Below are positions 13,501-64,000 of a stretch of DNA of 64,000 nucleotides, one piece after another. The notes beneath the pieces were generated by a model. It ran no database searches and was not told where the DNA came from. It worked only from the letters and a program-made list of their open reading frames with translations. The DNA lies in the NCBI RefSeq assembly GCF_041260155.1, contig NC_091941.1, forward strand, positions 38,822,747-38,886,746, read 5' to 3'. Both the position numbers and the translations under genes were made by a program. How positions within the stretch are numbered: position 1 is the stretch's first letter; every line of letters begins with the position of its first letter. This stretch comes from Ptychodera flava (Eukaryota > Hemichordata > Enteropneusta > Ptychoderidae).

Positions 13501-16500
13501 TTCATGCTGATTTATGTTGGCTGTTTTAGTCAGTTGTCTAAAAAGATATTTTTTAAAGAAAACATTGAAAAATAGTGCTCCTAAAATTTACATGTTTTAT
13601 AATGAAAACCCACACGGATTACATTTATTAATGCTTAAACTGTCGTGATATCTTAATCACCTGTTAGATCAGTACTCTAGATTACTGACTGAAAATTTGA
13701 ATCTGTCTTGTCTCAATAAGATAAGACTGTGTGGTTGAAACAACAAAGATATACAGCAATCTTATTCAGACTTATCCACTAGGCCTTGAGTTATGATTAA
13801 AATCTACAGATACTAACTGGTTGCCTTGCCAACCGACGATTTGTTGTCAAAACAAAAAACAAATTAAGAGTGAAAAGATATGATGTCATTGACAAGCCAA
13901 ATTACTCTATAATGAAAGACCTAATGACAATTGCTGCGTTAATATTACATTTATTAGTTTATATTAAAAGGGAATTGATGTGTGGAATATGCAATCAAGT
14001 CTTTATTGAATTATTTCTAGGGATTTTCTGTACCAAGTCAAATATCACTCTACAATGATATAACAGAATTCTGCACAGAAGATCGATTGTGCAGATTAAA
14101 AACGTAATGACTACAAAACTTTACAAATACAATGTTTAGTGACAGACCTTTACGTGTGTGTTCTCCTATTTTCAGGGATTCTATTTTTCGTCAACTTTGT
14201 GCTGTAAATTGGATACTTGAAGCAATGAACGTAGAGCCTCCAACAGCCATGGGTCCCATTCTGCAGAGTTGGAACATTAAATACAAGTATGTCAGAGAGC
14301 TGCCATCACATTATAAGAAGATGTATAATTTCTGAAATTTTCTAGGAAAACATTTCTTGATTTCAACAACCACTGTTCAATTGCATTGCTATTAACAAAG
14401 TTTTTCACATGTTTACTCTGTGCAGGCGATATTTTTGCTAAACAAGGTGGCTACATTCTCTTTGCTTTAACATAAATTATGAACAACTGAGATGATCGCT
14501 ATCTAACAATTATGCATTTGAAAGTCATATATCAGTATGAAAATACACCATTAAGATTTTCACTAGGGTCAAATTTTACTTCTATGATAGCTGCCTTCAA
14601 TCTCATAATTTTGTTACATGTCTGATTTTGTAATTTCTTACTGGGAAATATCCATGATTGCTATCGATACCTGTGATGCTCTGCACTGTGACTTTAAACC
14701 ATTCAGTTTGCATCTCCAGTTTTACAGAGGTAATTTACCTCTGCGCTATGTGTCAAAAGTCAAGTATAACCAGCTGCGTTTCCTTATTTTCTCTTGCAGT
14801 GATCTTGAAAACAATATCTTCAACAAAACTACAGTAAAGAAAGTCACCAGAGATAAAAATATAGATGTGGCATGGAAGGGTTTTCTGACGCACAAGAAGG
14901 GAGATTATTTAGACAGGGTAATTATGCCAGTATAGATATTACAATATGACCAATATCTAAACTATTTTGTTGTTGCATTTAGTCAATTTATGCAAGTATT
15001 AAAGTTCATCAAAACAAAGTGCAACACTACCACATATGTTGTAAAGAAACTTCAATATTACACCAAGAATGTGCTGTGAACACACAATTACTTTTTGAGT
15101 GTTTTCTTACCAGTAAGTGGCACATCTGAGGGCCATGAGAGTATGATCAATTCATACCGTGGTAGTATTGTAAATTCTGAACATTCCATGAAATCTACTG
15201 TTTCTTTCCCAGACAAAGAAAATCTTGCGGAACTTTGGAAGCACACTGACTTCAACGCCAGCTTTCCAGGGTAGCCTACGCAGCACACCACGCAAGAATT
15301 CATTTGCAAATGCATTGAGTTTAATTCAGAGATCACCATCCACACTGTCAAGTAATCAGAGCTCTACACCAACTCCAGTCATTCCTGATAATTATCAAGA
15401 CAGAGAAGACGCAATGAGTCGAGTTGATGAAGACGCAGAATTTGAAAAATGTGAGTTTCACTGCGGTGCTTTGTCTAATCCTGTTGTACAAAAGTGATTG
15501 TAAATTGTGTTTGACTTTCAATTTGACAAACTCCTCAAACTTTCCAACAATGCTGTAATGCCTTTACTGTGTACAGTCACACTTAGAGTAGATATCATGT
15601 TCTGTTTGCAAACACACACACACCTTTCAAATTGATAAAGTCACTTAGCTAATGGATGTACACTTAGCCAATGCATTTACATAGAAATGTGATATCCACA
15701 GCTCACTTCAAAAATATTTGAATTAAGAACTGAGATGCAAAGACCATTTACGCTCAGTTTGAACCAATATAGTGTTAAAATTGATGACAGAAACATTGTC
15801 CCTGTGCAAAATAGCTGTGCTCATTTTTTTGTCAAACATTCACATATAAGCTTTGCTGTACTGTATTCAAATGAACATCTCCAAAGTGGTCAGTGAGTTG
15901 CACTGTTTTTGGTCCCAACAACATGAAGATTTAAGATTTGCAGCGAAGATTACAAGTGAAATTGTTTAATGAACATGGTTCAACTTGGTTTCAGAAAGTC
16001 TTTTTTCATCATCATCAGATAGTATTAAAGTGACTGATTACCTTTCTTGGACAATTGAGAATGAAATTTGTAGTCCATTTCTCTTGCTTCCAAAGGAAAA
16101 CAACAATTCTTGAAGTTATTGTAACCCGTTATATGTCTCATAACACCACTGAATTATAACTTCTACATTTCAGGGCCATCTGATGCAGCATCTAATGTTA
16201 TCAATGAAAGTGTTGATGAAGCACAGATAGTCAGAAGGTAATGTCAACAATTTATTCAATTTCACGGCCTCTCTGTCTTGGTGTCTTTTCTCCTCTCATT
16301 GAAGCTCTATCCCCGTCTTTCTTCCCACTCATTACTTTGCCCCTCCCTACCTCCCTCCTTCCCCCTCTCATCTTTTTATGTACAAAACATTTGCATGAAA
16401 TATACATGTAGAGATTTTACAATACAAGAACATGCTTACTTTACTGTACTACAGTAGATGTTTCAGTAGCCACTCACAGTCATTTTCTTTGATTCTGTGT

Positions 16501-19500
16501 CATTTTGTCATACTTTTGTTTAAATTTTCCACCTCTCCGGCCATGATATGTCATGAATAAGTCTTGTGTCACTGGATCTTTGTAATCTCATACTGAGTGT
16601 ATCCTCAGACATATTTCATGAAATCTTTAAGTCAGCATAGAGATTTCTGGAAATTTCTGAGTGTCAACTCTGTACCAGTACATGTAAAGAGTGAAATTAT
16701 CCTGCGTCTATTAAAGAAAACTTTTGTGAGTCTGCAGTGTGTCAATTTAGCTTAGAGGCAGTACACTGGTTTTACATTTGTCTACTTCATAATAATGAAA
16801 TGCAAAAAAAATGCATCAATAGGTAAGTTATACATGTGTACCAAGGCTAACAATGTATAAAGATGAAAAATTATCCATTAATGAAGTTTTGTAGTTATAC
16901 ATCTCTGGGAATGCCAGAAACAATGACATATTCAAAATGCATGTCACTGCACTGGTTTGTTATGTTAAAAGTGTGTGAATGCCTATAAGTTTCAATGGGA
17001 TATCCTTCCAGTGTTAAATCTCTGATACGTATCTATCACTTCCAACTGGATTATTGTAAATCCTAATATCAAGATTGTCATTTTTGTTGCAGGCAAAGAA
17101 CTGGTTCTGTGAGTAGTATGAGGAGCACTAAGGAGGCACTGGCCATAGCAGCATTGAAAAAGGATGCACGACAAACTAATAAACCTCTTTTATCTGTAAG
17201 TGTATTTCGCATGCCATAGACTTTGTTCTTGAAATTCAAGTATATCTTTCCAAAATTACCAGTGCAGAATACCTGGTATTAGTCTTATTGTTTCTATGAC
17301 ATGGTCGAAATCCCAAAGAATTATATTCTTAACTTATGCAATGATTGACTCTATAAGACCACATGTATTGGTAGTTATTACATTGTCATGACAAGTTTTA
17401 AAGTATATATTTTGCAGATATCATCATTAAACTCACCAGAATTTCAAAAGTTCTTTTTTGCATCTGTGTGATAGGATTTGATGATATCTTTGTGAGAAAG
17501 TGAAAAAGGTTAAAATGTCAGCTGTAACTACAAGTGCCTGTGATGCAGAGTGCCATTGGGTTGTGTTGCTAAGACCTTAAATGAATTCTTCTCATAGTGT
17601 TGTTGAAGTGTCATTGACTCAGTGGTAGATGATTTGGAATTTAGTTCTATGAATTTTCTTTCTTCATTTTCAGCAACAGGAGCTTGAAACCAGAGGTCCT
17701 CCTTCGAGGAAATCTGACAGAGCCATCAGTACATGGGTGAGATCCACCAGTAGAATGCAACTTAGGTCACAAAGGTAAGGACAGATATCGCTAAGATGTA
17801 CATGTTTGTATGGCTGATTTTGTAATAACAGACCAAGTATATCAATAATTTATAAATGAATTCAGCTGATTTTAGCACAATTTTGGCACGATACTAGTCT
17901 GATGTTGGTCTGATGATGGGTTTTCATAAAATGTTCTTTTCTGCTCTTTGTAGTACTCCACCAGATCTAAAGGACCCAAAATATTTTCCGAGTAAAAAAC
18001 ATGGAACTCTGGCCATTGATTTGAGACACAAATTTAATGATGTCACGGAAGATAAGTCACTGGTGCTACATGATGAACTGGAGGTTCTTGAAAAGTAAGT
18101 ATGTACAATATACAAAGTGATAATATGAGCCAAGCCAAGCAGTGTTCTCCCCAGAGGGTTTTAGCGTATCGGGGCCGATACGCTTTAATTTTGGCCGATA
18201 CGCTTTCACACCGGCCGATACGCTATCCGATACCCTATTTGAACCAACCGCCGTGTACAAATGACCTGCTAATGGGTAGCTGATTACCGTGCACCAGCAA
18301 GTTTATTGTCAGTGACGGACAAAAAGTGTACTTCACAAGTTTATTTTTAAATAATTCACAACAAAAAAAGGTGTCAAACGTGATTTGATGTTGCATATGG
18401 GACAAAGAGATCGACATTTGGTAACAGACAGACGGTCGTCCGTAACTTTATCAAGATGTTGACAGCTGCGTTTGGGCAGCTAGGTTTGAATTACGGTAAA
18501 CACAAACCATCGACCGTTGACAAGTTTGTTCCCTGTGGTAGACATGCTAAAATAAACTCTAGGGCCTACAGTCACTATTAATTTGTAACTGAAGAAGTAA
18601 ATCAAGGTTGTAGGGCCTCGGAAATTCAGTGGTAAAGCATAACGACATCGACATCTCTGAAGTGTCAGTGTCTCTTGTCTGTCAATTACTATTACACGCG
18701 TACGCTGTACTCTCAATTGAGCGATACGTACACACCGTCTTTCCGTCAATGATAATATACTAACCAGCCATTTACAAACCTTTTGTTCAAAGAATTCATC
18801 GTTTTTTGGTCCAAAACAACATAAAATGGATAAATGTGGCATTTTAAGTCTCAAAGTTTGACAAGAAATATCGACGGCATCCAAACAGCCACACTGCAGC
18901 CGACATATTGACAGGCCATTTTGTGCGTCACAAAGGTAGACACCCTAAGATGCCGGTTTGTGATTAGACTCCCCAAGTCCTTCGGAATACGTACAGTTCA
19001 ACACGAACACAGAGGAAATGACACTATGCAATATATCATCTTCAGGTTAAAATTGTTTTCATAAATTTTAACGAAAATTAATTAATATTCATGACATATT
19101 GTTATGTAAATTTATGCTAATTAGCCGATACTCTATGATTTTTTTCTGGGGAGAACACTGCCAAGGTTGAGGTGACCGGTGCATTCAGTGAATTATCTGC
19201 TGACACGGTCCCTCCACAAACGGTCAAGAAACGCTTTTGTTCAAAGGTGCTAATCACCTACACAGTTGCAACAGTCCGCGTTGCGGTGGATGCAGGAAGC
19301 GAATGACGTCATAGGCAAGTTAGCATCTTGTTTCAGTGGCGTCTTGTGACACGGTCCCGCTCCAGTATCCTACGATTTTCAGTCAATCAAGCTACTTTAT
19401 TTTCATCTTTCTGCACTGTTTCGCATGTATTTGAAGACTGGTGAGAAGATGAGTAAAACAGTTTCTTAAAGATCTAGGTCACTATTGAGAAATCTTGGAT

Positions 19501-22290
19501 GATATTTTATGGCTGAGTTCAGCCATGAGGTGATCTTGACCGACGCCGTGCATTTCGGAAACACTATGAATTTTACTCCCCCGTTTGTTTTTTTCACCTT
19601 TCATCAAAAAAGTAAGTCATGCACCTCCTTACAAGGCAAAGACTTCGAAAAAATAGGGAATCGTGTTGTGTTGTTTTTTTGAAACCTAATTCGACAAGAA
19701 AACTAGTCGTTTTTGCCGCGTTTATATTTTCAACTGAAAACAAAATGGCGTCGCTTGGGATCGACGAGTCGTATCTGCATTACATAGGAAAATCCTAAAA
19801 TGTCTTCCTTAACTCCCTTTTGATATCGATTTAACATGATAATTCCTCAGTTCCAAACTTTGAGAGTTCGATTTGAAATTTTTAATCGTTTTCAACAAAA
19901 TTCAATGCACGAAATCAAGGAACTCTTACGATGACCTTGTTTTTGCAAGATGCTCCCGTCGACCGTGCGTCGACCCATTGAGAGTTGGCGTTATGGTAAT
20001 AGTGCAACGTTTTTGTCCCCTTTTTTTCTCCTTTATCGATCGTTCAGAGGTGTCAAGTGCGTCCCTACCGATCGTTCAGTCTTCTCAAAAGTAGGCAATC
20101 AGGTTCATGACGGAATCTGTTCTTTCTTAAAGACACAAGTTACTGCCGAACCCAATGTTTTGATTTTGTCGACCTTTCGAATTCTCAGACCGCCAAATGT
20201 AGAGAATCTAGAAACCCTATAAGTGTCGCGACATTTTGGTGACATGACCTCCCCAAGCCTGGGTGCCAAACTCTCTGCCATACATGCCATGGATTTTCCT
20301 GATTGAGGATCAAGTGAGATACAAATCATGTCGTGTATGGGTTTTGTATGTTACCCACGAGAGACCGTGGTCAGCCCATCGATGGGTATTTATACACAAA
20401 CTGATTGTATCGGTTGCTACACTGTGGACATTGGAAGACCACGCAAGCTAAGGCTTGGGTTTCGCAGCAGTACGTGTCGACACAGGATTTTTATCTTCCA
20501 AAATGAAGTCCCAATCAACATGGGAGTCGTCAAAATTGACGAAATCGTCTCCGAACTTGTACATAGTTCACGCTGCGTGACTCCACGGCAGGCAGATGTA
20601 AACAAACTTTGGCCTTTAGACGCATGCGCAGACAATAATCAGAATGCATTCTGGGAGAATTAAGTTTCTGCTTACGATGATTTTATGTACGTAACTGTTA
20701 ACACCTCCCGCCACACGCGTGATAATCCAGGATTATCCCCATCAGTAAAATCAACAGAAAGCCCAATCGAAACCCGGATTATAACAAAAGAAACTGGTGG
20801 CGTTTCTTGACCGTTTTGTGGAGGGACCGTGCTGCTGATAATGGTCCCATCTTTTGTCTATCTACCGGTATAGTCTACACAGCAATCATATCTAACCAAC
20901 AGAACTACCACCTATTGTGAGGAAATCAATGACACACTGTGATGTCATTGTTATTGCCGTACTCTCACCAGAGGCACTAAACTGTGCTACTTCCATAATT
21001 TTCAGGATTTAAGAGAATGAAAGCAAATACTGGTATCTTTGCAACTTATCATTTCAAAGAAGAGAAGAGAGACAGTGCATTCTGGAATACATGACCAACA
21101 CAAAATCCAATAAATAATAACTTATTTATCTCATCAGTCATTTGTCATTCACTGTGCTCAGAAAGATGTTTGCTCCATCACCCTGGATTTATTGAACAGT
21201 GCTAGGTGTGTTCGTAAAACATTCATCAAGCGCTGTCACAGCAGGTTTCCATAGCTCTGATACCCAGGCCCCTTATGTCTTCGTTTTTTAACTATACACA
21301 GAAAACGCCGGCAGAGAAGTGAAGACAAGTTCAAGGCCATAACACATAAGAAGCATATTAGTGAACAGCTTGAGGTGATCAAAGAGGCTGCTAGGGACCC
21401 AGATGAGATAACTGAAGAAAAGAAAAGAAGGAAAAAACAAGATGAAGAAATTAGATGGTATGTTAGCATTTGTTTTTGTCTTTTCTTGCTAAAAACATAA
21501 TCAGATAATTTTCTTTATTTCTTGTGAATTTCTTTGATATGTGCACTTATAATTTTCTCCAATCTTAAAAGTAATTTTTCAGAAAATTGATAAATGGGTT
21601 TAGGTTTGCTGATACCTAAAATGCTACAAAACATAACGAAATGTTTCAAATGCTGTGTTCTATATTATAGGTTTCAAGATTTAAAGAATAATCTACCGCC
21701 AGGGTTTATTAGTGACAGGAGAATAGCAGCAATAATGGAAAAATTGGAGAGCATCGGCAATATTGAAAGTAGGAAAATTACACCACAGAAATTCCTGAAT
21801 GTGTTGTCTGGTTTGAGAAGTTGGGAGCTTTGTTCGCCTGATATATCAGCAGCAGTTGAGGTATGTAGTTGAATTTAGAGTAAATATGTCTTGGAGGAAA
21901 AGTGTTGTTACTTAATCCAAATAATTTGCGGGCACGTTATGATATCATACAAGTTATACAGCAGAATGTCAATGTAGTTCTGACATGGAGTGTTGACATT
22001 GTCTGTATGTCATGGTTTCTCTCAAATCAGCTGTGGCTTTCACTTTGAATGAAATGTCTTGAAGTCAAGAGTGTATGCCACTCTCTGAATGCAAAAGATG
22101 AAGCGGTATTCCTTGTTGCTTGGTTCTTGTCAATAGCACTTCAGTCTCAGGAGTGTGACTGCATGTTCTACGCTTTTTTTTACAGTTTGTTCGTGAGAGA
22201 GTTGTCAACATGGCGGTCGATGACTTTGAAGAGTGGTGTCAACACCACATGCCAAACATACTCCGAGCACAAAGTGCACCACCAAGATGA
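2780..22290 (+). CDS. CCDC60: coiled-coil domain-containing protein 60 (CCDC60) orthologue, 16 exons, 760 aa
   Basis: Exons: 2780-3064, 7785-7954, 8596-8665, 9054-9181, 10722-10793, 13071-13301, 14176-14286, 14800-14917, 15213-15450, 16174-16237, 17093-17195, 17674-17774, 17954-18094, 21302-21457, 21671-21860, 22186-22290. All introns are GT-AG, phases agree at every join, and coding length is 2283 nt including TGA. The ATG has a strong context (A at -3, G at +4). Diagnostic matches to vertebrate CCDC60 (recalled; Pfam DUF4698): SVKLGHGLFSI (about residues 157-167), RPYTPCHS (about 297-304), FRQLCAVNWILEAM (323-336) and LRSWELCSPDISAAVEFV near the C-terminus. The protein is charged and largely helical, with a lysine run at about 286-293 and no signal peptide or membrane segment. 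It is about 200 residues longer than human CCDC60, partly through an N-terminal exon of 95 codons that I do not recognise. Its molecular role is undefined, but the family is linked to ciliated tissues. A missed small exon in the 4.7-kb intron 1 is possible. Confidence 0.93.
3894..3941. repeat. (TA)n followed by (AAT)n
   Basis: About 14 TA units run straight into six or seven AAT units, abutting the retroelement-like tail that follows. Confidence 0.85.
3922..4000 (-). mobile_element. 3' tail of a LINE/SINE-type retroelement
   Basis: Read on the - strand, a short hairpin built from AAGCGCACT and AGTGCGCTTTAAAG is followed by AAATAAAT and an (ATT)n tail. This hairpin plus ATT-tail layout is common at 3' ends of L2/CR1-type LINEs and their SINEs in marine animals. 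No coding part remains. The upstream boundary (higher coordinates) is unclear and may reach about 4100. Confidence 0.45.
4440..4503. repeat. (TA)n microsatellite
   Basis: About 32 uninterrupted TA units, probably length-variable between individuals. Confidence 0.95.
18140..19160. mobile_element. non-autonomous DNA transposon, CAGTGTTCTCCCCAGA termini
   Basis: Perfect 16-bp inverted ends CAGTGTTCTCCCCAGA / TCTGGGGAGAACACTG, with CCAAG directly on both sides (18135-18139 and 19161-19165). CAGTG ends recall hAT elements, but hAT target duplications are 8 bp and only 5 bp match here, so the superfamily is open. Near the left end GCCGATACGCT occurs three times, and a relative, GCCGATACTCT, sits near the right end in the same orientation; these look like subterminal transposase-binding repeats. 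A 134-codon open frame on the - strand inside shows no transposase motif, so the element looks non-autonomous. Confidence 0.85.
19204..20831. mobile_element. non-autonomous DNA transposon, CACGGTCCCTCC termini, 7-bp target duplication
   Basis: Inverted ends of about 31 bp: CACGGTCCCTCCACAAACGG continuing to AAGAAACGC, mirrored at 20801-20831. CTGCTGA is duplicated exactly at 19197-19203 and 20832-20838. The 1.63-kb interior has several 60-110 codon open frames with no recognisable transposase. A 29-bp end-to-end derivative of the same family, with its own 7-bp duplication, lies at 36132-36160. Confidence 0.88.
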
Positions 22291-23086: not shown

Positions 23087-23790
23087 AGCTCCCATTTGCC
23101 ATACATATATGGCAATTTGGAGGTTATATGGTTGAAAAAAGTCTGTATGTGAGATGTCTGTCTGTATGTATGTATGTATGTATGTATGTATGTATGTATG
23201 TATGTATGTATGGATGTCTGTCCGTCCAACGCAAAAACTCCAAAAGTGCTACACGTAGAAAGCTGATTTTTGGTGTAGTGATGCCATATATGGTCTAGAT
23301 GTGCCGTTGTTAAAATGAACTTGTTAGTCTCATGGATATGCAAATGAGGTAGAAAAAAAGGCGAAAATGGTCAAAAATCAATAACTCAGGAACTACTTGT
23401 CTGATCATTGTCATATTTGGTTTTTAGGTACCTTAGGCCCCATTCATTCAAACATATAGATTTGGTGTCAATATTGGCTGCTTTCTATTTTTAATGAATT
23501 TTTTTCTCTATTTTTTTTTGCCATTTCAGTAGAAAATTGTTTCCTCTGAAACCAATGGTCTGTTCGCTTTAAAATTTGGTTTGCAGGTTTCTTGTGATGA
23601 CCCAAAATAGGATTCATTGAAATTATGGCAAAATTTACATATTTGTATTTTTGGGCAATTTTTGCCATTTTTGGTCAAAAAAATCTTTGAAACTGTGTAT
23701 GCCATTACTTTCTAATTGGGTGTGCAGGTTCCTAGGAGTGACCTGAAGATGACTCGGTGAATTAAAGGCGAAATTAGCAAATTTGGTACA
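23087..23790. repeat. GTAT microsatellite plus degenerate tandem repeat, locus 1
   Basis: A (GTAT)n run at about 23163-23213 is followed by degenerate units. Their hallmarks are TTTGCCATTTTTGGTCAAAA, a phrase like ATTTGGTTTTTAGGTACC, and a stretch resembling AAATTTACATATTTGTATTT. The same head-plus-units arrangement recurs at 25.5 and 30.0 kb. Confidence 0.7.
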
Positions 23791-25499: not shown

Positions 25500-26210
25500 G
25501 GGTATCAAGTTGAACAAGCTGATATTGATAGGTTGGGCGGCTGTTGGAGGTTAAAAGCTGTAAAATAAATGTATGTATGTATGTATGCATGTCTATCTGT
25601 CTGTCTGTCTGTCTGTCTGTATGCATGCATGCATGCATGCATGTATGTATGTATGTATGTATGTTGGTATGTGTGGATGTATGTCCATCCACATTGAAAA
25701 CTCCTAAACCGCAGCACCTACCATCTCAGTATTTGGTGGACAGGTGCACCCAGGGGTGAAGATGTAAATTTGTTCAAATGAATATGCCAAAGTAAAAAAT
25801 ATGCAAATGTGGGGGAAATAAAGCAAAAATCCTGCAAATCGCTAAAACTCTGTAACCACTGACCAGATTTGGTTGAAACTTGGTATGCAGGCTCTTTATA
25901 GTGGCTTTAGTTACATTTCTTCAAATTGTGGTGAAATGTTGAAAGTTGTATTTTTGGGGCGATTTTCCCATTTTTGGTCAAAAAATCTTATTTTCTGAAA
26001 GCGCTCTTCCCGTTGCCTTGAAAACTTGTATGTATTATCCCAGGGTTTGCCTTTGTCAGATTCGTTCAAATTGTGGTGAAATTTTCATATTTGTATTTTT
26101 GGGGCAATTTTTCCCATTTTTTGTCAAAAAATCATTTTCTCCCAAAGTATTTGTTGGATTGCTTTAAAACATGGTAGTCTTGATCCTAGGGTTGTTTTCT
26201 GTCAGACATG
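25500..26210. repeat. ATGTATGTCTG microsatellite plus degenerate tandem repeat, locus 2
   Basis: Mixed ATGT, CTGT and ATGC tetranucleotide runs at about 25569-25665 precede two clear units whose TTTTTGGTCAAAAAAT marks are about 146 bp apart (near 25970 and 26115). Same family as 23.1 and 30.0 kb. Open frames across it on both strands are produced by the repeat. Confidence 0.75.
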
Positions 26211-29999: not shown

Positions 30000-30790
30000 A
30001 GCTTCTTCTTCAAAACAACCAGTCTGATTCCTTTAATATTTGGAGTACAGATCCCCAGGGATGACCGTAATCAGATTTGTTCAAATTGTGATGAAATATG
30101 CAAATTTGTATTTTTGAGGCAGTTTTTGCTATTTTTGGGAAAAAATGTTCATCTCATTAACGGCTGGTCTGACAGCTTTAATATTTGGTATACAGGTCCC
30201 GAGAGATTACCTTATTTTGATTTATCAAATTGTGATGAAATATGCAAATTTGAATTTTAAGGCAATTTTTTGTCATTTGGTCAAAAAAATCTTTAAAATC
30301 TTCTACAAAAATGCTGGTCAGACAGCTTTGATATTTGAGATATAAGTCCCTAGATTGGACATATTTCAAACTTGTTAAAATTGTGTAGCTCATCTTATAG
30401 CTTTGATATTTGGTATGCATGTTCTCATGGATTAACTAAATGTAATATATTGAAATTATCATGGAATCTGAAAATTTGTATTTTGGGAATATTTTTTGCC
30501 ATATTTGGTCAAAAAAAATGTTTCTCAAAAAGTACTTGTCTGGTAGTTTTGATACTTTGTATACAGGTTCCTAGGGATTATTGTACTGTGATATATTGAG
30601 ATTATGATGAAATCTGCAATTTTGTATTTTTGGGTCAATTTTTGCCACTTTTGGTCAAAAAATTTGTTTCTTAAAAACTGCTCATCTGATAGCTTGATGT
30701 TTGGTAGTCATGTTCTTAGGGATGATCTTAATGTGACATTTATTTTTAAAGCTATTTTTGCTATATTTGGTCAGGCCATCCTGAAATGAG
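30000..30790. repeat. degenerate tandem repeat, locus 3
   Basis: Four or five diverged units of roughly 145-170 bp. Each carries a phrase like GCTTTGATATTTGGTATACA, a CTAGGGAT-type stretch, and TTTTTGCCATTTTTGGTCAA. A GTCCGTCATCCATC phrase at about 29970 matches the heads of the loci at 23.1 and 25.5 kb, although the tetranucleotide run is missing here. Confidence 0.75.
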
Positions 30791-31430: not shown

Positions 31431-31594
31431 CAAATATCATTTATGTCATTTTCCAGCGCAAGTTTCTGTTCATTCTCACACCAAAAATGTCTCAATGGAT
31501 ACCCTAAATATAGACATCCCTGAATGAAAAATTTAAAATTACATTTTTTGGAGTGCTGTGTTTGACATTTTACACAATGATTGGAGCAGGGTTG

Positions 31595-31968
31595 GGGCTA
31601 AAGATGGCATCATTTATTATATCCTGCAAAACAGGCAATAAATTCAGAAAAATACATCAGACTTTAAAAAATGAGGAGGAAAATGAACATCATGAAGATT
31701 CTTTGATAACTGAAGTGTTTCAGCAGTCTGGTGTTATAGTTTCAGTCTCTCTTTGAATGGGCTACTTGCTGGATGTAATGATTGCTCACGCTCCTGTCTT
31801 CTTCCCTTGTTGCAAGTTAGGGTCACAGTTCCACGGCTGGAAAATGCCCTCTGTCTCACACATTATGCCGAGTACACAAGTTGTAGAAATCACCTCGCCC
31901 AAGTTTCTTTTCTGTCTTTGCTATGGTCTCTAGGATAGGTTGATACAACACATCAAACATACTAGACT
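31595..31968 (-). other. MTLN: probable 3' UTR exon of MTLN copy A
   Basis: A donor (CAG then GTAAGC, intron beginning at 32959) lies 53 bases after the MTLN stop. Conserved acceptors TTCTTCCAG (exon from 32015) and TTTACCTTTACAG (exon from 31968) are both kept in the copy at 47.2 kb. An AATAAA on the - strand at 31618-31613 would end the transcript. The segment is repeated with high similarity at 45.39-45.92 and 47.36-47.74 kb in the opposite orientation. The splicing is inferred, not shown. Confidence 0.45.
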
Positions 31969-33011
31969 CTGTAAAGGTAAAACATTTGATGTTGTGAAAA
32001 TACGTACTGTTGGTACTGGAAGAATGAAATTAGATGCAAGTACAACTGTAACAAGCAAATTTAACAAATTTTGCCTCCGCAGATACTAAGATCACGCATT
32101 TCAGGGATTGTATGTCTCCAACATAGATTCTTTGTAACTTCAAACGAATTTTGTGGGAAGAATTTAAAAGCTACGGTATTCCAGTGTGAATTGTTAATGT
32201 CAACAGGTAACTTTCCTCGAGGCCTTCCATATCAACCGATTTGCTACAGTCACAATTAGGCTTGTAGATTGTGTGATTTAATTACAAGATGGTTTAATTC
32301 TCACATTGATTTGTTTACAGGTTGAGTGTTTTAAGTATTGCACAACAACACAACATGTTTGCAGTCTCCAGGGAAACTGTAATCTAGTAGACATTACATG
32401 TAACTTAGTGTCTCAACACTAAGTTTCGTACATATAATCGTTTTATTGTATCTCTCAAAAGCCTGAATTAAACCTGGCTGAGTCTCTTCGAGGTGAAGGG
32501 ACTGTGATTAAACTCAACAGATGCTCTGAACAGTTTTTGAAAAAGTAAATTCTCACATTTTAAGGATAACCGAGCAACTGGGTGAAATAAAATTGCAAGA
32601 GGATTCAGATCGCTCTCCGCACACATCTAAATCTCCTACGATATGAACGCTATTGCTCTTATTCATATGGGTGTTTCTGTTGAGTCACTTTAGAATCATT
32701 CATAAAGGGTGGTATCACCCAACTCTTAATTCAAGATAGCGTTGTTTGTCCAATCTTTTGTTGAGGTGGCTGGCAGAAAGAAATTCGTTGCTGGGGACGC
32801 AGAACTGACCTAAACTGACCTTAAATTATATATAGCAGACTATTGTTGTTACACAATGTACCAGTAATGTGTATTTTGTTTGGGGCATAAATATTTGTCA
32901 TTCGGGGAGAACCCAAAAGGAAATAAAAAAGACATTACGGAACGATATAAAAGGCTTACCTGTGTCTGGGTCAGCTAGTCGACTGGTCTTCTCTTTTGTT
33001 CCATGACATGT

Positions 33012-33182
33012 TTAGTCATGTCTTTCTTTACTGCGGAATTTTTCTACAGCTTTTCTTCTCCTGTACTCGTTGTAACCTCTTCTTACAGAGTTCAGTTTCC
33101 ATCCAACACAAACTCCAGCTACAAAAGTTAGAGAGCAAAGAATAAAAGCAGCAGTCCCACTAAGTTCTGTATCAGAGCCCAT
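33012..33182 (-). CDS. MTLN: mitoregulin-like single-pass mitochondrial microprotein, 56 aa (copy A)
   Basis: Starts at ATG 33182 (G at -3, G at +4) and ends at TAA 33014-33012. Length is 56 residues, the same as human mitoregulin as I recall it. A short N-terminal part (MGSDTELSG) leads into a hydrophobic segment (about residues 11-28), then FVAGVCVGWKLNSVRRGY (residues 20-37), to be compared with human FASGVLLGWQANRLRRRY, and finally a basic tail (YRRRKAVEKFRSKERHD). The shared GV..GW..N..RR.Y core, topology and length make the call strong for so small a protein. Known vertebrate mitoregulin sits in the inner mitochondrial membrane, binds cardiolipin and supports respiratory supercomplexes and fatty-acid oxidation; the same role here is inference. 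The 5' end is probably near 33236, where similarity to the copy at 46.1 kb begins (TTGTCAGTCGAGTGCAAG). Confidence 0.82.
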   Translation of the reverse strand: MGSDTELSGTAAFILCSLTFVAGVCVGWKLNSVRRGYNEYRRRKAVEKFRSKERHD

Positions 33183-33538
33183 CTCCAAAGATTTCACTCT
33201 AAAATATTAACTGCTCTTGCACTCGACTGACAAGGCGTAGAAAAACTTGCACAGCGCCACTCTGTGCCCGCACCTATCAGAGTTTTTTGTTTTCACTCAA
33301 CCACTCATGTGACTTGGCATTGACAAGGGGTCAGTGTTACCATGGAAGCTGTGGATAAGGTCAACTCACTTGAAATAACGATGAAGCATCGCTAGGATAT
33401 GTGACTTAAGGATTGAACAAAGACAGATTTCGGCTCAAACTACTTGACATATTCTCAGTGTTATGGCACTATTTTACTGACCATTCACAAATATGATAAC
33501 AATGATCAGCTTTCCAAACACAAGGTTTAGGCCTAAAT

Positions 33539-40924: not shown

Positions 40925-41062
40925 AACAGTCAACTGTGGTCTATTCCGCTCTGCATCTATATATGCGCCCCATAAACGTGTGTACTTCTTCTCAGGCATA
41001 TGTACACACGTCTATGGGGCGCATAGACGCAGAGCGGAATAGACCAGAGGTGACTGTGGAAA
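40925..41062. mobile_element. palindromic MITE-like repeat
   Basis: Two inverted arms of about 60 bp (40925-40985 and 41003-41062) are separated by 17 bp. Each carries TCTATTCCGCTCTGC or its inverse, and the TGCGCCCCAT motif. A single arm of the same family (CTATGGGGCGCATAGACG) is found at 63788-63840. No coding capacity. Confidence 0.7.
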
Positions 41063-41926: not shown

Positions 41927-42655
41927 ATTCTGTAGCAGGGTGATTAAATACCTTGCTTATAAGTCTCAGCATTCCTGTCGAGTAAATATTTTGCAGTCAG
42001 TATCTTTGTTAGTCTTTCTTTGTCCTATGGTTTATTTGTCGTTTTTTTAATTTTTTGTCTTTTTGCCCCTTTGGGCGACAGGAAAAAATAGCTCTTCGAC
42101 GGGCCCAACTAACCAAGATTTGGTACATTTCCAAACTTTCTTTTTTCCCCCAAATCAGTCTCATGAATGCAACAAAGTCTCATTGACTAGTTTCCCGTCG
42201 AAAGTGATATATTTTAGTATGAGCAAGGTTAGGGACTCTAGTAAACTGAAAAATAATCTCGGAGACGGACTGCCCAGACATGACGCTTCATGTTCATGGG
42301 AGACATATCTACTATTAAAGTGATTATGTGTGAATAAGTTTTACTTCCTTTCAAAAAACTTGGAAAAACAAGATGTAGTGTTTTGCGTTGTGTCGTGTGA
42401 AAAATTACCCCTTCACAAATGGTTGCCGCAATTTGTCATGGTCTATCATGACTGCCAGCCAAGAGCCTTAATGTTCATAAAATCAATCATCTTCTTATAC
42501 TTCGTAACCAGGACTCTACATGGAATTTCCCCGGATCAAATTCTTTCACAAACTTTTTCAATTTTTTTTATTGGAGTTATCAATAAAGTTTTAATACATG
42601 CCTTATAACATCTAAGAAAAAAATTGTTTTACATTACAGAAGCCAATAAAGTATT
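41925..42655. other. no gene seen
   Basis: Two + strand open frames of 86 and 92 codons lie here back to back (42063-42323, 42330-42608). Neither has a recognisable motif or exon framing. Confidence 0.45.
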
Positions 42656-42659
42656 GAAC

Positions 42660-43703
42660 ATTCATCATATATTATCATTATCATGTGTCATGTCTGTTGT
42701 GGATGGGTCTCGGTAGATATTAGAATTGTAAATTCCCCACTTCCTATTATGTGCAGACATTTTTTCTCTTTTCTTAAGGCGATGTGAAACTCAGTATTTT
42801 GTACAGAGTTAACAAATCTTTTGTATGCTATAAAGCTGGGTAGCTCCTTTCTCGTACGACAGATATAAATGTACCTTTTACCAATAAGAATTAGGAAATT
42901 CACAATAACAGAAAGTTTGGGATCACCTAGTATGATCTGTCATATTTTTGGTCTTATTCTCAATTTTAATTTTTGTCCCCATAACATAAAAAACTATTCC
43001 TAAAATAACTGTACATGTTGACAATCATATAAAATATGGAGTACAGTTTCCTTGTTGTTTTTGCAGAAAGAACATAGAGCATTATTAACCATGGGCAGAT
43101 TCATTTTACTCAGTTTAGCATTTGTATATAGGATATGGTGTAATATTTTAAACTGAAACTCTCTCATTTAGAGTCTGTAGTTATTTTAAATGGAAGTTGA
43201 TAAATTTGGTCCCAGTTGTCAATATTGATTTTAAATTCATCCTTAAAGTACAGTTCTGATTTTGGTTGTATAAAATTAATGTCATTAATTATCTGTGTGT
43301 CTACTTTTGTATTACACAGTTCAACACTAATTGACCTGTTATTTTTCAATACAATTTTGATTTCATCGTCATCATCAGCTGTACTTCGCTGATTTACTTG
43401 TATGTTGGCTGGTATAACACTTTTTAGTCCAAACCATTTCGATATGGATGATTGACGGATACCTTTACTATGTACAGAATCCCAGTCCAGCTTTTGACCA
43501 TTTTCATTGTACAGTTGTTCTAAATATAGAATTCCTGCTTCCACAAATTCCTGGTAAAACACAGAACGTTTGCCAATCAAAATGTCCTTATTGTTCCATA
43601 GAGGAGTTTTTCTGGAATTTAAATTATTTCCATGGTGTGGTATTTTCAAAATCAACTCTTCCCATGCTTTCAACATGGTGTAAAAGAAACCTGTGATTTT
43701 CAA
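42660..43703 (-). mobile_element. LINE (non-LTR retrotransposon) 3' fragment
   Basis: A 179-codon open frame (43703-43164) reads as the post-RT C-terminal region of an L1/Tx1-type ORF2. The pattern PLWNNKDILIGKRSVFYQEF, then EAGILYLEQLYNENGQ, is the familiar (P)LWNN..I...(K)PVF...W...GI..(V)..L...NG signature. Beyond an interruption, the - strand continues with CSFCKNNKETVLHILYDCQH, a cysteine/histidine knuckle, and SFIAYKRFVNSVQNTEFHIA, near the normal protein end. The reverse transcriptase and endonuclease parts are absent, so this is a 5'-truncated dead copy. The intact 179-codon frame suggests that it is not very old. Confidence 0.8.
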
Positions 43704-45390
43704 CGGTAGTTAAATAACTTTAAAATAACATTTCAATAATAACTTTAAACCTCCAACTGGCTTCAAATTTACCAAAACAGATCATGTCAAGGGCAAGTTA
43801 TTGTGGTGAATTGGACATCACAGCCCAAGGTTGTCCAGTGGACTACATGTATATCGAAGAAAATATTGATATACTGTATACAAAGTCTGCTAAACAGTAT
43901 TCAAACCTATTTCGCGTATATTGAGCAATTTCTTATTTCTAGACGTGAGGTTTAAGTGTTTGAATTCATTATTATGTCTAATATCACCTTAAAAATTATG
44001 ATATTGAAATCAAATAACAAACTCATGCATAGAATAAACAGTAAATCAACAGATTAGTTTGCCTTTACCATATAATTCTGAGTCATGGATAGTGAAGTCG
44101 TTTCTGTGTTCTATAAATCTGAGGGAAAGGTATTTAGATCGGACTGTAAGATATCCATGGCCAGAAGTCAAGAATTGTGCCAGTTTTACATTAATTAATC
44201 TTGCACTGAATCCACTATTTACAGATTTTACAACAAATATCCGCATGAAATACATCTAACGATCAAGACTTCGTCGGGAGGGCCGATGGGATATGATTCA
44301 AGTTCGGGAGGACCTTCCATGGAAATTGTGCATGAAATACATTTTACGATTGGAAAATCGCCGAGAGAGCTTTCCACGAAATACATTATCTTTTTTACGT
44401 TGAATACATTATATCCATTTGTTTCATTTAATGTCTACTCGAAGTAGATTTTACCTTCGGTATTTTGTCGAGAGGACTGTTAGAGTTTGGGGTAAAAAGT
44501 GTAAAAAATGTATAAATACAAAACATGTACTTCGTTTCGTTGTCTGTAGACATTTCCCTGACAAATACAAATAGTAGGACAAACTTGATTAAGTCAAATA
44601 TTTATGTAATTGAACAAATTAAATGTACAGGAAAGTCAAAATTATGATTGAAAATTGGTTAAGAAGCAAAACAATTGATCGAAAAACAACTCAGTAACCT
44701 AATGTCGTTTAGAGCGACCATCGATGACGTCAGTTGACCGCAATGACGAGTTTCTTATGATTTCTACATTTTATCTGTAGATCGTCCGGCATTAATATCG
44801 TGATCGTTTTTAGCTTGCACTTCTGCTGTCAATCCTTACTGAGGAATCATGCATTACTAAGTGTCGAAATGCAGATCTTATTTGGTTTATCGGAATCACC
44901 TGATCGTGTATGGGTCTCCGCCAACTCCAACGTTACTGTTACAACAAGGGTCGGAGTTTGCGGAGATCCATACAAGACCGAATATTTCAGTCAAATGAAT
45001 CACCATGTAAAACTAGAGTTAACGTTTGCTATGCTCTGTAAAGTCAACTGTTTAGTCACTGGTATTTTCAGTCAACCATTACAAAAATTTCGTATGAATT
45101 ATAAAATGCCTAGATATAAGATGAAATATAAGATATAAGTGAGCTTACTTGCCCTTAATATGGACACGTGAAAGACAAATGAGTAGATTATTAGGTCGAT
45201 CTTGTCGAGAAAGTTAGTTACGTTGTGAACGCTGACTAACCTGGTTAGTTTGGGTGTAGGTTGACAAGATACCACGAGGACATATTGCTAATATAAGTTG
45301 AATAACGACAGCATACTGATATGATCACACGATAGAGAAATATCTGTGTTAAAATTTCTATCGTTGTCTCTGAGCCGGACATAATGCAAC
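43704..45390. other. no gene seen
   Basis: Intergenic. The consensus CRE site TGACGTCA occurs near 44727. Two opposed 66-69 codon frames at 44046-44259 overlap each other and carry no motif. Confidence 0.45.
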
Positions 45391-45394
45391 TTGC

Positions 45395-45920
45395 ACGCAA
45401 AGTCCTTCCCTATAGTTGAGACTGTAGAAAGACAGGAAACATTCTTGGGTGAGGTGATTTCTACAACTTGTGTACTGGACATCATGCAAATTTCGGCCAT
45501 GACATTGTGACCCTTTCTCCTGGTACATCGGGGGAAAAGAGTCTAGACAAGAGTCTGAGCGTTTCAGCAAGTAGCACATTCAAAGAGAAAGACTTAAACT
45601 GTAACACCAGACTGCTGAAACACTTCAGATATCAAAGCACCTTCGTGATGTTCATTTGCTCCTCACCTTTTAAAAGTCTGATTTTTTTTTCTGAATTAAG
45701 TGCCAGTGTTTTGCTGGATACAATAAATTATGCCATCTTTAGCCAAAACTCTGCTCTTAGATTATTGAGCGCAAAAATATCAAACATAGCATAGGAAAAC
45801 AGGCAATTTACTTATTTTTCAATCAGGGAATTCTGTAGAAGTATCCGTTGAGACATTTTTGGTGTGATAATTAACAGAAAATTGCACAAAATGGCATTAA
45901 ATACATAAAGGTAGCATTGA
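45395..45920 (+). pseudogene. orphan copy of the MTLN 3' exon (copy C)
   Basis: Highly similar to the inverse of 31930-31430 and, in the same orientation, to 47360-47735. It carries the ACCAGACTGCTGAAACACTT core, the GAGACATTTTTGGTGTGA phrase, and AATAAA (about 45721). It has no coding exon, so it is the 3' end of a lost tandem copy just upstream of copy B. The 108-codon frame crossing it is antisense to nothing known and is not a gene. Confidence 0.75.
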
Positions 45921-46147
45921 CGGTACTAACATAAAATGACTCAGATTGACGATATTTCTTTTGGTGGCAGGAGTGAGAAATGGTGCTACTAATGTATGCT
46001 GTCATAAATATTAATTATAAGACATTAATATTTATGAGTGGCCATCTTTGATTTGTTAACCGTTATATCCAAACACTTAGTATTACTGCGCTTATTGTCA
46101 GTCGAGTGCAAGCGCAGTTACACACTTTTAGAGTGCAATCTTTGGAG

Positions 46148-46324
46148 ATGGGCTCTACTATAGAACTGAGATATGATGATATTGTTTTTCTTTGCTTTCT
46201 TTGCTTACTGATTTTCCTATTCGGAGTTAGTGCCGGATGGAAGCTGAACTCGACAGTAAGAAGAGGTCATGAAGTATTTTGTAAGGCCATTTCGGTACGT
46301 ATCCATCGAGTACTCCTCGAGTAA
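46148..46324 (+). CDS. truncated/diverged mitoregulin-like paralogue, 58 aa (copy B)
   Basis: Same start context as copy A (TTTGGAGATGGGCTC). It keeps MGSxxEL, a very hydrophobic membrane segment (about residues 12-28), and GVSAGWKLNSTVRRG, with one Thr inserted before VRR. After RRG it departs from copy A: DNA equal to about 33065-32895 is missing, so the basic tail is replaced by unrelated residues ending at TAA 46322-46324. The same deletion removed the 3' UTR splice donor. The surrounding DNA, 46.09-47.74 kb, is an inverted duplicate of 33.24-31.43 kb. It may be a pseudogene or a tail-less variant that still inserts in membranes. The open frame spans the whole region, so coding is possible but unproven. 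Confidence 0.5.
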   Translation: MGSTIELRYDDIVFLCFLCLLIFLFGVSAGWKLNSTVRRGHEVFCKAISVRIHRVLLE

Positions 46325-47273
46325 CAGATATCTATGCCCCAAACAAAATACACATTGTAGGTACATTGTATACCAACAATAGTCTGCTCTATATGTGGGT
46401 TATTTGAGGTCAGTTCGGCGTCCCAAGCAACGGATTTCTTTCTGCCAGCCACTTCAACAAAAGGGGACAAACAACGCTATTTTTGTGAGTGGGGTGATAC
46501 TATCCTTTATGAATGATTCTGAAGAAATACTGTGAGAGTAACAGCGTTTATACCGTAGGAGATTTAGATATGTGCGGAGAGCGATCTAAATCCTCTTGAA
46601 ATTTAAGTTCACCAAGTTTCATGGAATACCCTTGGAATGTGAGGATTTGACATTTTCAAAAACTGCTCAGAGAACAGTATAGAGTTTATATCACAGTCGC
46701 TTCACCTCGAAGAGACTCAGCTGGGTTTAATTCAGACTTTTGAAAGATACAATAAAACAATTATATAAAACCTAAGTACTGTTCACCATAGCTTAATGTT
46801 TACTAGAAGACCAGTTTCCCTGGAGACTAGACAGTGCAAACATGTTGTGTTGTTGTGCAATACTCAAAACACGTTACCAGTAAACAAATCAATGTGAGAA
46901 TTAAACCATTTTGTGATCACACAATCTGTGGGTCCTATCGTGACTGAAGCAAATTGGTTAATATGTCCAAAGGCCTGGAGGAAATATAAAGTTACCTGTC
47001 ATAGACATTCACAATTTCTCGCTGGAGTACGGCTAAGTGTTTAAATTCTTCAGACCACATTTGTTCACAATTTACAGGTTCACTTTGCTGGAGGCATGTA
47101 CAGCTTAGTAATGAAAAATCTATTTTGGAGGAGACACACAATCCTTGAAATGCTTAGTCTATTATCTGCAGAGGCAAAATTATTAATTGTTACAGAGTTT
47201 TTATTCTTCCAGTATTAGAAGTATGTATTTTTACAAAAATGAATTTTTATTTTACTTTTACAGATTCTTGTGT

Positions 47274-47740
47274 TTTTTGTGTTTTGTTACTGCCTATTCA
47301 TGATCCTGTGGTAATGTACCTGATTTCTAAAGTTTGTGTATGACAGCCATCAGACAGCGACCCTTACATAGGGCGAAGAACGGAAGACAGAGTCTAAGCG
47401 TTTATTTGGATTCAGCAAGTTAGTAGTGCTTTCATCAAAGTGTACAGACTGAAAGTATAACACCAGACTGCTGAAACACTTCAGTTATCAAAGCGCCTTC
47501 ATGATGTTCTGGTTGGCTCCTCTTTTTTAAAGTCTGAAGTATTTATTGCCAGTCTTTTGCAGGAAATTAGCCCAAACTCTGCTCTTAGATTGAGTTCACA
47601 AATGTCAAACATAGCATACCAAAAAGTAATTTTCTTATTTTTTAAATAAGGAATGCCTATATTTAGGGTATCCATTGAGACATTTTTGATGTGAGAATGA
47701 ACAGAAACTTGCATATTTTAAATGGCACTAATGATAAAAA
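47274..47740 (+). other. 3' exon-equivalent of MTLN copy B
   Basis: Follows a conserved acceptor (TTTTACTTTTACAG) that matches copy A. It contains the shared ACACCAGACTGCTGAAACAC stretch, but the AATAAA present in copies A and C is deleted here. This favours decay of copy B's transcript structure. Confidence 0.5.
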
Positions 47741-53500: not shown

Positions 53501-54972
53501 AATTAAGCCCATTTGCATACATATTTCCATATTAATGCTGGCTTTCACCCTAGTAAAATGTTAAACAATCATAGATTCTATTGTTTCACTGACAAACCTG
53601 TGAATAAGATGTCAGTGATGATGTCTCAAATATCAAATACAGTAAAATAACATCCCTAGGAAAATTAATGACTTGCATCTTACAAAATCCCAGTTGAAAT
53701 CTTAGGCCTTTTGAGCAGGAATCATCATTTATCTTCTTGTTATATACAAGGGACATTTTGATTTTTTATCAATATACCATAATATATCATGGATAATTTT
53801 ACTGAAAAAGTCAAATATACTTTCTCACCTTTTATTGACAGCCTCATTATGTCTCTAGCAAATGACTAAAAAATTGAAAACGAAAAAATTAAAGTAAGAC
53901 AATCTTGATTATCAAAAGGCCAGCAGCTGTAACTTTTAAGGAATTTTTCACTATTTTTGTTTTTCCTGGTAATTGCAACCACAGTTTCTTGTACATACTC
54001 CCCAAAGCATTATGAGATACACAGTATACAGCTTGTCAACTCAGTCTGTATATGTGTAAACTGCATTGTCACAGATGGCCAGTGAACTCTTGTCAGTACT
54101 AAAATTCACATGTAAACAATTATACAAATGTAATAACAGTGCTTTTTACATATGAAGACACTGTGTTGACAAGCTAAATAGTAGGTATTTCAATATGCTT
54201 TGGGGAGTGGAACAAGAACTTGCAATTGACATGCAAAACAAATTAGTGAAAAAATCATCAAAGTTAGAGTTACTGATCATTGTACCAAATCCATGATCTC
54301 TACTGAGAAAATTTCCAAGCTAAAGGGATAATTACATTTGTAAAGTGAAAAGAATACAAAAGAAATCTTGACACTTGAAAGATATTGACATTTCACTGTG
54401 ATGTGAGTGTGAATTTCTTAATCGGAAGGAAAAACAATGCGACCTTCAAAATATAGAGAAACTGATACGTTAACGGGTATTATTATGAATGATGGTATAA
54501 CTGGGCAGTTATACATAGTTTTCACTCAAAATAATTTTAGTCAAGATCTCAGCATTTTTGTAGACGTCTGCAGTGTCTAATGATTATAGAAAATAGATCA
54601 TGTTAACTACTCTATATCAATCTTGACCTTAAAACAACTGTGAATATCCTGCACATGCTGATATTTTTGAGCATCACATCATAGTTGTTTTGACAGCCAA
54701 TGTATGCAAACCCTGTCAACTGACATGCCAACTGAAATATGTAGGATACACTTACATCTGTTTTGATGAAATTTAGATTTCTTTGGAGAGATTGGTAAAT
54801 ATTAAGTTGATCCTCTGATGAAAATGCTTCAAGCTGTACATGGTGTTCTTGGCAGTACTGTATGGCAGAGATCTTAAATTGAAAATCTTCATCTGTTGGG
54901 TCAATGTGAAGGCCAGTCTGGAAAAACAGATACAGAAATCAAGCAACCTCTATCGCTTCATACGATGAGCAA

Positions 54973-55027
<55 letters not shown>

Positions 55028-63486: not shown

Positions 63487-64000
63487 GTTGAACACTCGCT
63501 TCACAACAATACAGCGCCCTCATACAAAAACAAATGAATGAACACAACACTGGTATGGGTGAGTCACAGGCGTGGATTACCAATCAGTGCCCGTGTACTA
63601 TGATAGAGGATATGTTTGTCACCCAGGCGTTCAATATTTTTATGGATGATGAACAAACTATGGAACATTATGAAAATAGATATTCATTTAGAACATGATT
63701 TTGAAAGATAGACTTATGCACAGTATTTGCAGTAACATGTAGAATACACACACAAGCTCTTATTTAGAGAAAGATTACATATATGTACACTCGTCTATGG
63801 GGCGCATAGACGCAGAGCCGAATAGACGACAGGGGACTGTGACTTATGTTTTCACTGTCTTTGTAGGCAATGCAATAGAATATTAAATCGTTGTAGATGT
63901 AAATGACATGTTTTCAAGCATATCAAAGCATAGGGGCCTCAGGCTCCTTGTTTGTTTGTTTGTCTGTTTTAAGTGAATGTGTTTATTTGTTAGTTACATA
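63487..64000 (-). promoter_or_regulatory. 5' flank of the TPR gene
   Basis: Upstream side of the TPR gene. It contains the repeat copy 63713-63775 and the single arm 63788-63840 of the palindromic family at 40.9 kb. No TATA box or other clear promoter element is visible, and no further gene begins before the window ends. Confidence 0.4.

Follow-up and report, generated by a model that had tools for sequence, protein, structure and literature searches.

Vertebrate mitoregulin is a single-pass protein of the mitochondrial membrane, and its placement in the inner or the outer membrane is disputed; HADHA, HADHB, cardiolipin, CYB5R3 and CPT1B have been reported as its partners, with little agreement between studies, according to one account (PMC11920140). 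Two further reports describe Sloth1/SMIM4 and Sloth2/C12orf73 (BRAWNIN) as inner-membrane complex III assembly proteins, and Sloth1 and Sloth2 occur in Drosophila (PMC9681215, PMC7066179).

Here we describe a locus in a window of 64 kb, by which we mean the whole stretch of DNA that was analysed. The initial annotation had placed an invertebrate mitoregulin of 56 residues at 33012..33182. The locus holds the frame itself, a similarity to mitoregulin (MTLN), a duplication, and splice and poly(A) motifs. In our reading, the minus-strand segment 33182-33012 is probably the first exon of a small nuclear gene that encodes a divergent mitoregulin (MTLN/MOXI/LEMP) homologue. Its features are as follows.

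33012..33182, minus strand: mitoregulin-like 56-codon frame of copy 1, stop codon included (translation, PF22002 match, shuffle and ORF controls)
33183..33233, minus strand: 5' leader common to copies 1 and 2 (90.2% identity over 51 aligned bases)
31969..32959, minus strand: putative intron of copy 1 (motif scan; donor CAG/GTAAGC, acceptor TACCTTTACAG)
31440..31968, minus strand: putative exon 2 (3' untranslated) and 3' flank (three-way alignment; similar in three copies)
46095..47731, plus strand: second copy (copy 2) of the ~1.8 kb unit, in the opposite orientation to copy 1 (blastn and alignment)
46148..46324, plus strand: copy 2 frame, 58 codons and stop (tblastn within the window: 44% over 54 columns, E=2.5e-6)
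45409..45900, plus strand: copy 3, partial, exon-2/3'-flank part only (blastn 31440-31939 vs 45900-45409, 73.8% over 522 columns)

A 56-codon frame on the minus strand

The copy 1 frame runs from an ATG at 33182 to a stop codon at 33014-33012. The coordinates proposed earlier were thus exact, stop codon included, and both length and span stood; the strand, which is minus, had been absent from that proposal. The plus strand is not open over 33012-33182, as a stop interrupts the reading, and we discounted the two plus-strand frames on this span, of 42 and 45 aa, as shadows of the one on the minus strand. Read from stop to stop, the frame covers 33015-33206 (64 aa), the upstream stop closing it after 8 sense codons. 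The start context, GGAGATGG, carries G at both -3 and +4, in agreement with the good context claimed for it.

The encoded peptide begins with an acidic N-terminus (charge -2). Its single hydrophobic segment spans residues 9-27, where the highest Kyte-Doolittle average over 19 residues is 1.96, and its tail counts 11 K/R versus 4 D/E. The single hydrophobic segment and basic C-terminal tail described in the initial annotation were therefore confirmed. So was the core pattern GVxxGWxxNxxRRxY, which is present at the membrane exit as GVCVGWKLNSVRRGY (residues 23-37). AlphaFold2, given both window copies as input, returned one helix spanning residues 3-55 (mean pLDDT 80.4, pTM 0.37), a model that would be as expected for a mitoregulin-type build.

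The length of the frame alone is uninformative because ORFs of this size are common: with the minisatellite at 57-59 kb excluded, the list for the window comprised 154 ATG ORFs between 45 and 90 aa long. It is the similarity, not the ORF size, that is unusual about the copy 1 frame. The minisatellite, with 71 copies of a 26-bp repeat (95% matches), occupies 57052-58903, where all three plus-strand frames are open over long stretches.

Duplicated unit, putative gene structure and selection

The blastn comparison of the window with itself revealed a duplicated unit of ~1.8 kb, present as two copies and one partial copy in both orientations between 31.4 and 47.7 kb; the initial annotation had missed it. 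Copy 1 lies on the minus strand, from 33233 down to 31440. The segments 31945-32912, 33075-33233 and 31458-31748 of copy 1 matched 47287-46310, 46267-46095 and 47712-47446 of copy 2, respectively, and 45580-45900 of copy 3 matched 47435-47731 of copy 2. Homology between the first two copies sets in abruptly ~50 bases ahead of the ATG, with 90.2% identity in the leader versus 49.0% just upstream, and because it begins there the transcript start probably lies close to 33183..33233. A donor motif, CAG/GTAAGC, was found at 32960/32959 (GT at 32959), 51 bases past the copy 1 stop codon. The AG of the copy 1 acceptor ends at 31969, and the acceptor is kept in copy 2 as TTTTACTTTTACAG, ending at 47263. 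The AATAAA motif was located at 31618 in copy 1 and at 45722 in copy 3; the motif scan did not find it in the copy 2 tail, 47264-47731. Read from these motifs, the simplest gene model suggests two exons, with the entire ORF in exon 1. Pfam matched the plus-strand frame 31514-31753 no more than weakly (E=0.024).

The copy 2 frame keeps the MGS..EL start, the hydrophobic segment, which is stronger than in copy 1 (2.78), and GV..GWKLNS(T)VRRG. Its C-terminus is short and different, without the basic tail, and the alignment indicated that the stretch holding the ORF tail and the splice donor is absent from copy 2. Candidate donor motifs were seen by eye inside or after the copy 2 core, and splicing from these to the conserved acceptor was considered. 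The copy 2 peptide alone had no MTLN match in Pfam. No mitoregulin-like frame was found upstream of copy 3, and 42000-46000 contained no further match to copy 1. Other repeated elements in the window comprise a dispersed repeat of ~145 bp with several diverged copies (23514-23682, 25904-26193 and 30006-30743) and palindromic stretches that match themselves on the opposite strand (40926-41057 and 53921-54275).

The comparison of copy 1 with copy 2 gave dN 0.28 and dS 0.38 over 36 aligned codons, or dN 0.31 and dS 0.36 with an alternative gap placement. The two copies were 74.1% identical over the shared frame and 82.7% over the intron, compared with 90.2% over the leader and 71.6% over exon 2 and flank. 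With a dN/dS of ~0.75 and a frame that has changed more than the intron, the pair gives no evidence of purifying selection. The initial annotation had held that a ratio near 1 would speak against the gene; the value of ~0.75 over the 36 codons did not come out in the gene's favour, and it stems from a paralogue pair only, in which copy 2 may be decaying. Decay or change of one copy would yield the same picture of dN/dS and identity. Both gaps in the shared frame (9 and 3) are multiples of three, compared with 6 of the 24 in the intron, and the ten residues GWKLNSVRRG are the same in both copies apart from the insertion of a single codon, the stretch carrying two silent changes. These frame gaps and the retained decapeptide would favour some constraint, though the numbers are small.

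The most serious alternative is that the two frames are remnants of a mitoregulin-like gene located elsewhere in the genome, carried on a duplicated, possibly mobile or low-copy unit of 1.8 kb. We consider this unlikely. Two copies and a partial copy in both orientations within 31.4-47.7 kb speak for it, as do the loss of tail and donor from copy 2 and a frame conserved less than the intron. Copy 1, however, is intact from start to stop and is accompanied by donor, acceptor and AATAAA motifs, and the gaps of its shared frame respect the reading phase in a way that those of the intron do not, few as two gaps are.

Similarity to mitoregulin against chance backgrounds

The preferred reading, a divergent mitoregulin homologue, was examined with profile searches. 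The top Pfam match of the copy 1 peptide was MTLN (mitoregulin, PF22002; E=1.1e-5, 25.7 bits), in which peptide residues 17-49 fell on profile positions 14-46, an offset of three on a 56-position profile. The next family was DUF6019 (E=0.076). The initial annotation had asked whether other families would rank above MTLN, and in Pfam none did. The score was 1.3 bits below the curated Pfam cut-off of 27 bits, and because this cut-off was missed copy 1 was not filed as a member of PF22002. No match to the peptide was obtained in NCBIfam, a bacterial and archaeal library, and phmmer against the PDB returned one match only, the BM2 protein (E=1.6), which was taken as chance. Rfam found nothing in the window.

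Of the window ORFs of 45-90 aa, 150 were scanned (4 of the 154 listed were dropped), and a single one matched MTLN. The other families below 1e-3 among these ORFs, within the best 25 of 42 families, were DUF4698, three TPR models and zf-RVT, and these matches trace to obvious genes or to a retroelement. We also used shuffles in which the N-terminus, the membrane segment and the tail each retained its own composition. When 70 such shuffles were run against Pfam, one matched MTLN, at E=0.029, and the best match to any family, within the best 25 of 36 families, was 8.1e-4. Consistently, in the run of the first 40 of the 70 with the window peptide added, MTLN was matched by the peptide and one shuffle.

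The human MTLN sequence used for direct comparison scored 106.8 bits on PF22002 over positions 1-56, a match across all 56 positions that confirms the sequence. Local alignment of copy 1 with this sequence gave a score of 78, whereas 20,000 segment-preserving shuffles had a mean of 26.2 and a maximum of 62. Among 2124 stop-to-stop frames of at least 20 residues in the window, copy 1 ranked first against human MTLN and copy 2 second (score 42; when copy 2 was shuffled 20,000 times, 33 shuffles reached it). BLASTP aligned the copy 1 peptide to human MTLN with 12 of 37 residues identical and 25 of 37 positive. Copy 1 is ~30% identical to human MTLN, and hhalign compared the two window copies with human MTLN at a probability of 92.4. 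Human MTLN also matched the bacterial LapA domain (E=4.7e-5), which shows that weak matches come easily to a build of this type. E. coli LapA scored 9.9 bits on the MTLN profile. The likeness between human MTLN and LapA is probably due to shared build rather than kinship, and it calls for caution with weak profile hits.

Chance or analogy would make copy 1 an untranslated or unrelated small ORF, in which a hydrophobic and then a basic stretch happen to carry well-placed GW and RR. As a natural null, we used 299 genomes of one bacterial phylum, that of a Rhodobiaceae MAG, scoring up to 21 candidates per genome among the rows listed, for which reason this null may be somewhat low. There was no MTLN match above the cut-off in the 299 genomes. 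Matches at E<=0.01 occurred in 14 of them, the best among those listed reaching 24.5 bits. This best match was a 125-aa frame (24.0 bits in Pfam) nested within a frame of 577 aa and read in a different phase, and it is probably not a gene; its score of 24.0-24.5 bits speaks for chance. In 14 well-known control genomes, some MTLN match at E<=10 was present in 10, and none was found above the cut-off or at E<=0.01.

Searches for relatives of the copy 1 peptide found none in the contigs of a genome collection (133 pattern stretches) or in viral contigs (12 pattern stretches). A three-row alignment query, combining the two window copies with human MTLN, found none in the viral contigs (31 stretches) and matched 1 of 14 stretches in the genome collection, in the Rhodobiaceae MAG (core 44% over query residues 20-53). 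That match was rejected as chance, being antisense to a 473-aa frame, which we take to encode glutamine synthetase. As neither the bacterial nor the viral collections yielded a true relative, a bacterial origin is unsupported.

That an antisense frame can match the core at 44% again favours chance, as do the missed Pfam cut-off and the selection that is not visible between the copies. Such matches, however, arose from 299 bacterial genomes and an 84,980-species collection, not from 64 kb. We estimate that ~25.7 bits would be rare yet possible by chance in ~1 gigabase and very unlikely in a single stretch of 64 kb. Moreover, none of the 20,000 segment-preserving shuffles reached the score of copy 1, and the match places a complete 56-aa protein on a 56-position profile at an offset of three, with a donor motif shortly after its stop. 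Chance therefore appears quite unlikely. The identity proposed in the initial annotation was upheld by the profile match, the shuffle and ORF controls and the profile comparison, and it was weakened by a score under the cut-off and by a bacterial frame, probably not a gene, that reached 24.0-24.5 bits. The best reading of these sequences is that the copy 1 product would be a divergent mitoregulin-like homologue that misses the cut-off.

Host, proposed product and comparison with known systems

Exon-like frames of a DUF4698 protein lie on the plus strand at 14111-21869, and we take this gene to be CCDC60-like. Two of the frames match in Pfam at E=4.6e-10 and 1.1e-15, and a third, at 17898-18095, does so weakly (0.0097). 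On the minus strand, 54615-63519 contains exon-like frames of a TPR gene, with TPR_1 matches at 59299-59514 (E=3.9e-6) and 55699-55974 (0.0036) and a TPR_2 match at 60464-60694 (0.01); the extent is a guess, as the outermost two frames have no TPR match. A LINE remnant (43003-43709, minus strand; zf-RVT, E=1.2e-6) is adjacent to a frame of 181 codons that had no match in Pfam. The separate exon-like frames of the DUF4698 gene and the LINE fragment indicate an animal nuclear genome.

A vertebrate host (e.g., a jawless fish), which would make the gene an ordinary though diverged vertebrate MTLN or a paralogue, is highly doubtful, for although the window CpG observed/expected of 0.50 is also compatible with some fish, vertebrate genomes are usually AC-rich and the window has only three AC runs of at least 6 units (38 bases in total, none longer than 14 bases; AG runs, 172 bases), and 30% identity to human places copy 1 far outside the mammal-zebrafish range. 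Between mammal and zebrafish MTLN, identity is 71% (PMC7214441).

The host is likely to be an invertebrate, and the claim that the gene is older than vertebrates depends on this. If the host is an invertebrate, the best reading is a divergent homologue of mitoregulin, which would be new to invertebrates; no report of an invertebrate gene was found in the accessible portions of the mitoregulin, MTLN and LINC00116 literature. On balance, we lean towards the view that mitoregulin predates vertebrates and that the locus is a duplicated one holding a genuine, expressed invertebrate orthologue, with copy 2 reduced to the membrane anchor and the GWKLNS.VRRG core. If so, anchor plus core would be an ancestral unit that can stand by itself, and the basic tail would be a module open to loss. 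An invertebrate homologue would imply an earlier origin, and comparative sequences would point to the residues that matter. It would also offer simple invertebrate models for the disputed location and binding partners of mitoregulin, and the locus could be another short gene overlooked by annotation.

According to the proposed working, copy 1 would be transcribed, spliced and translated, and its product would be targeted to mitochondria and functional there as a predicted 56-residue single-pass membrane protein. A short acidic N-terminus would be followed by a single membrane helix that contains a GxxxG patch and closes with GW, and then by a basic helix (LNSVRRGYNEYRRRK...) that may lie against acidic phospholipid heads, e.g., cardiolipin, or a partner enzyme. 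By analogy with vertebrate MTLN, the acidic end may be on one side of the membrane and the basic helix on the other. The protein may tune lipid oxidation and respiration beside membrane enzymes, without catalysis of its own, as has been proposed for vertebrate MTLN. After the duplication, copy 2 would have retained the membrane part and GWKLNS.VRRG and lost the basic tail, and it may be decaying or altered.

Among the known systems, the LapA domain (PF06305, bacterial LPS assembly protein A) resembles the product in its membrane helix, which continues into a further helix, and human MTLN matches it weakly; unlike MTLN, it is absent from the Pfam matches of the copy 1 peptide at E<=10. Sloth1/SMIM4 and Sloth2/C12orf73 (BRAWNIN) are likewise small, with a single predicted membrane segment, and are mitochondrial, as is predicted for the copy 1 product. 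Pfam has models for both, but neither family appeared in the copy 1 Pfam scan at E<=10, in which the HMMER filters drop most matches above ~0.1. The closest counterpart is mitoregulin (MTLN; MOXI, LEMP, MPM; human LINC00116; PF22002). It differs in that the N-terminus and last residues of copy 1 fall outside the matched stretch and in that the window locus is duplicated, with one copy devoid of the tail. The two are alike in their length of 56 residues, the one hydrophobic segment and the basic C-terminal part predicted to be helical, and the core residues G, V, G, W, N, R, R and Y are identical in the copy 1 peptide and the human counterpart, as BLASTP aligned the two.
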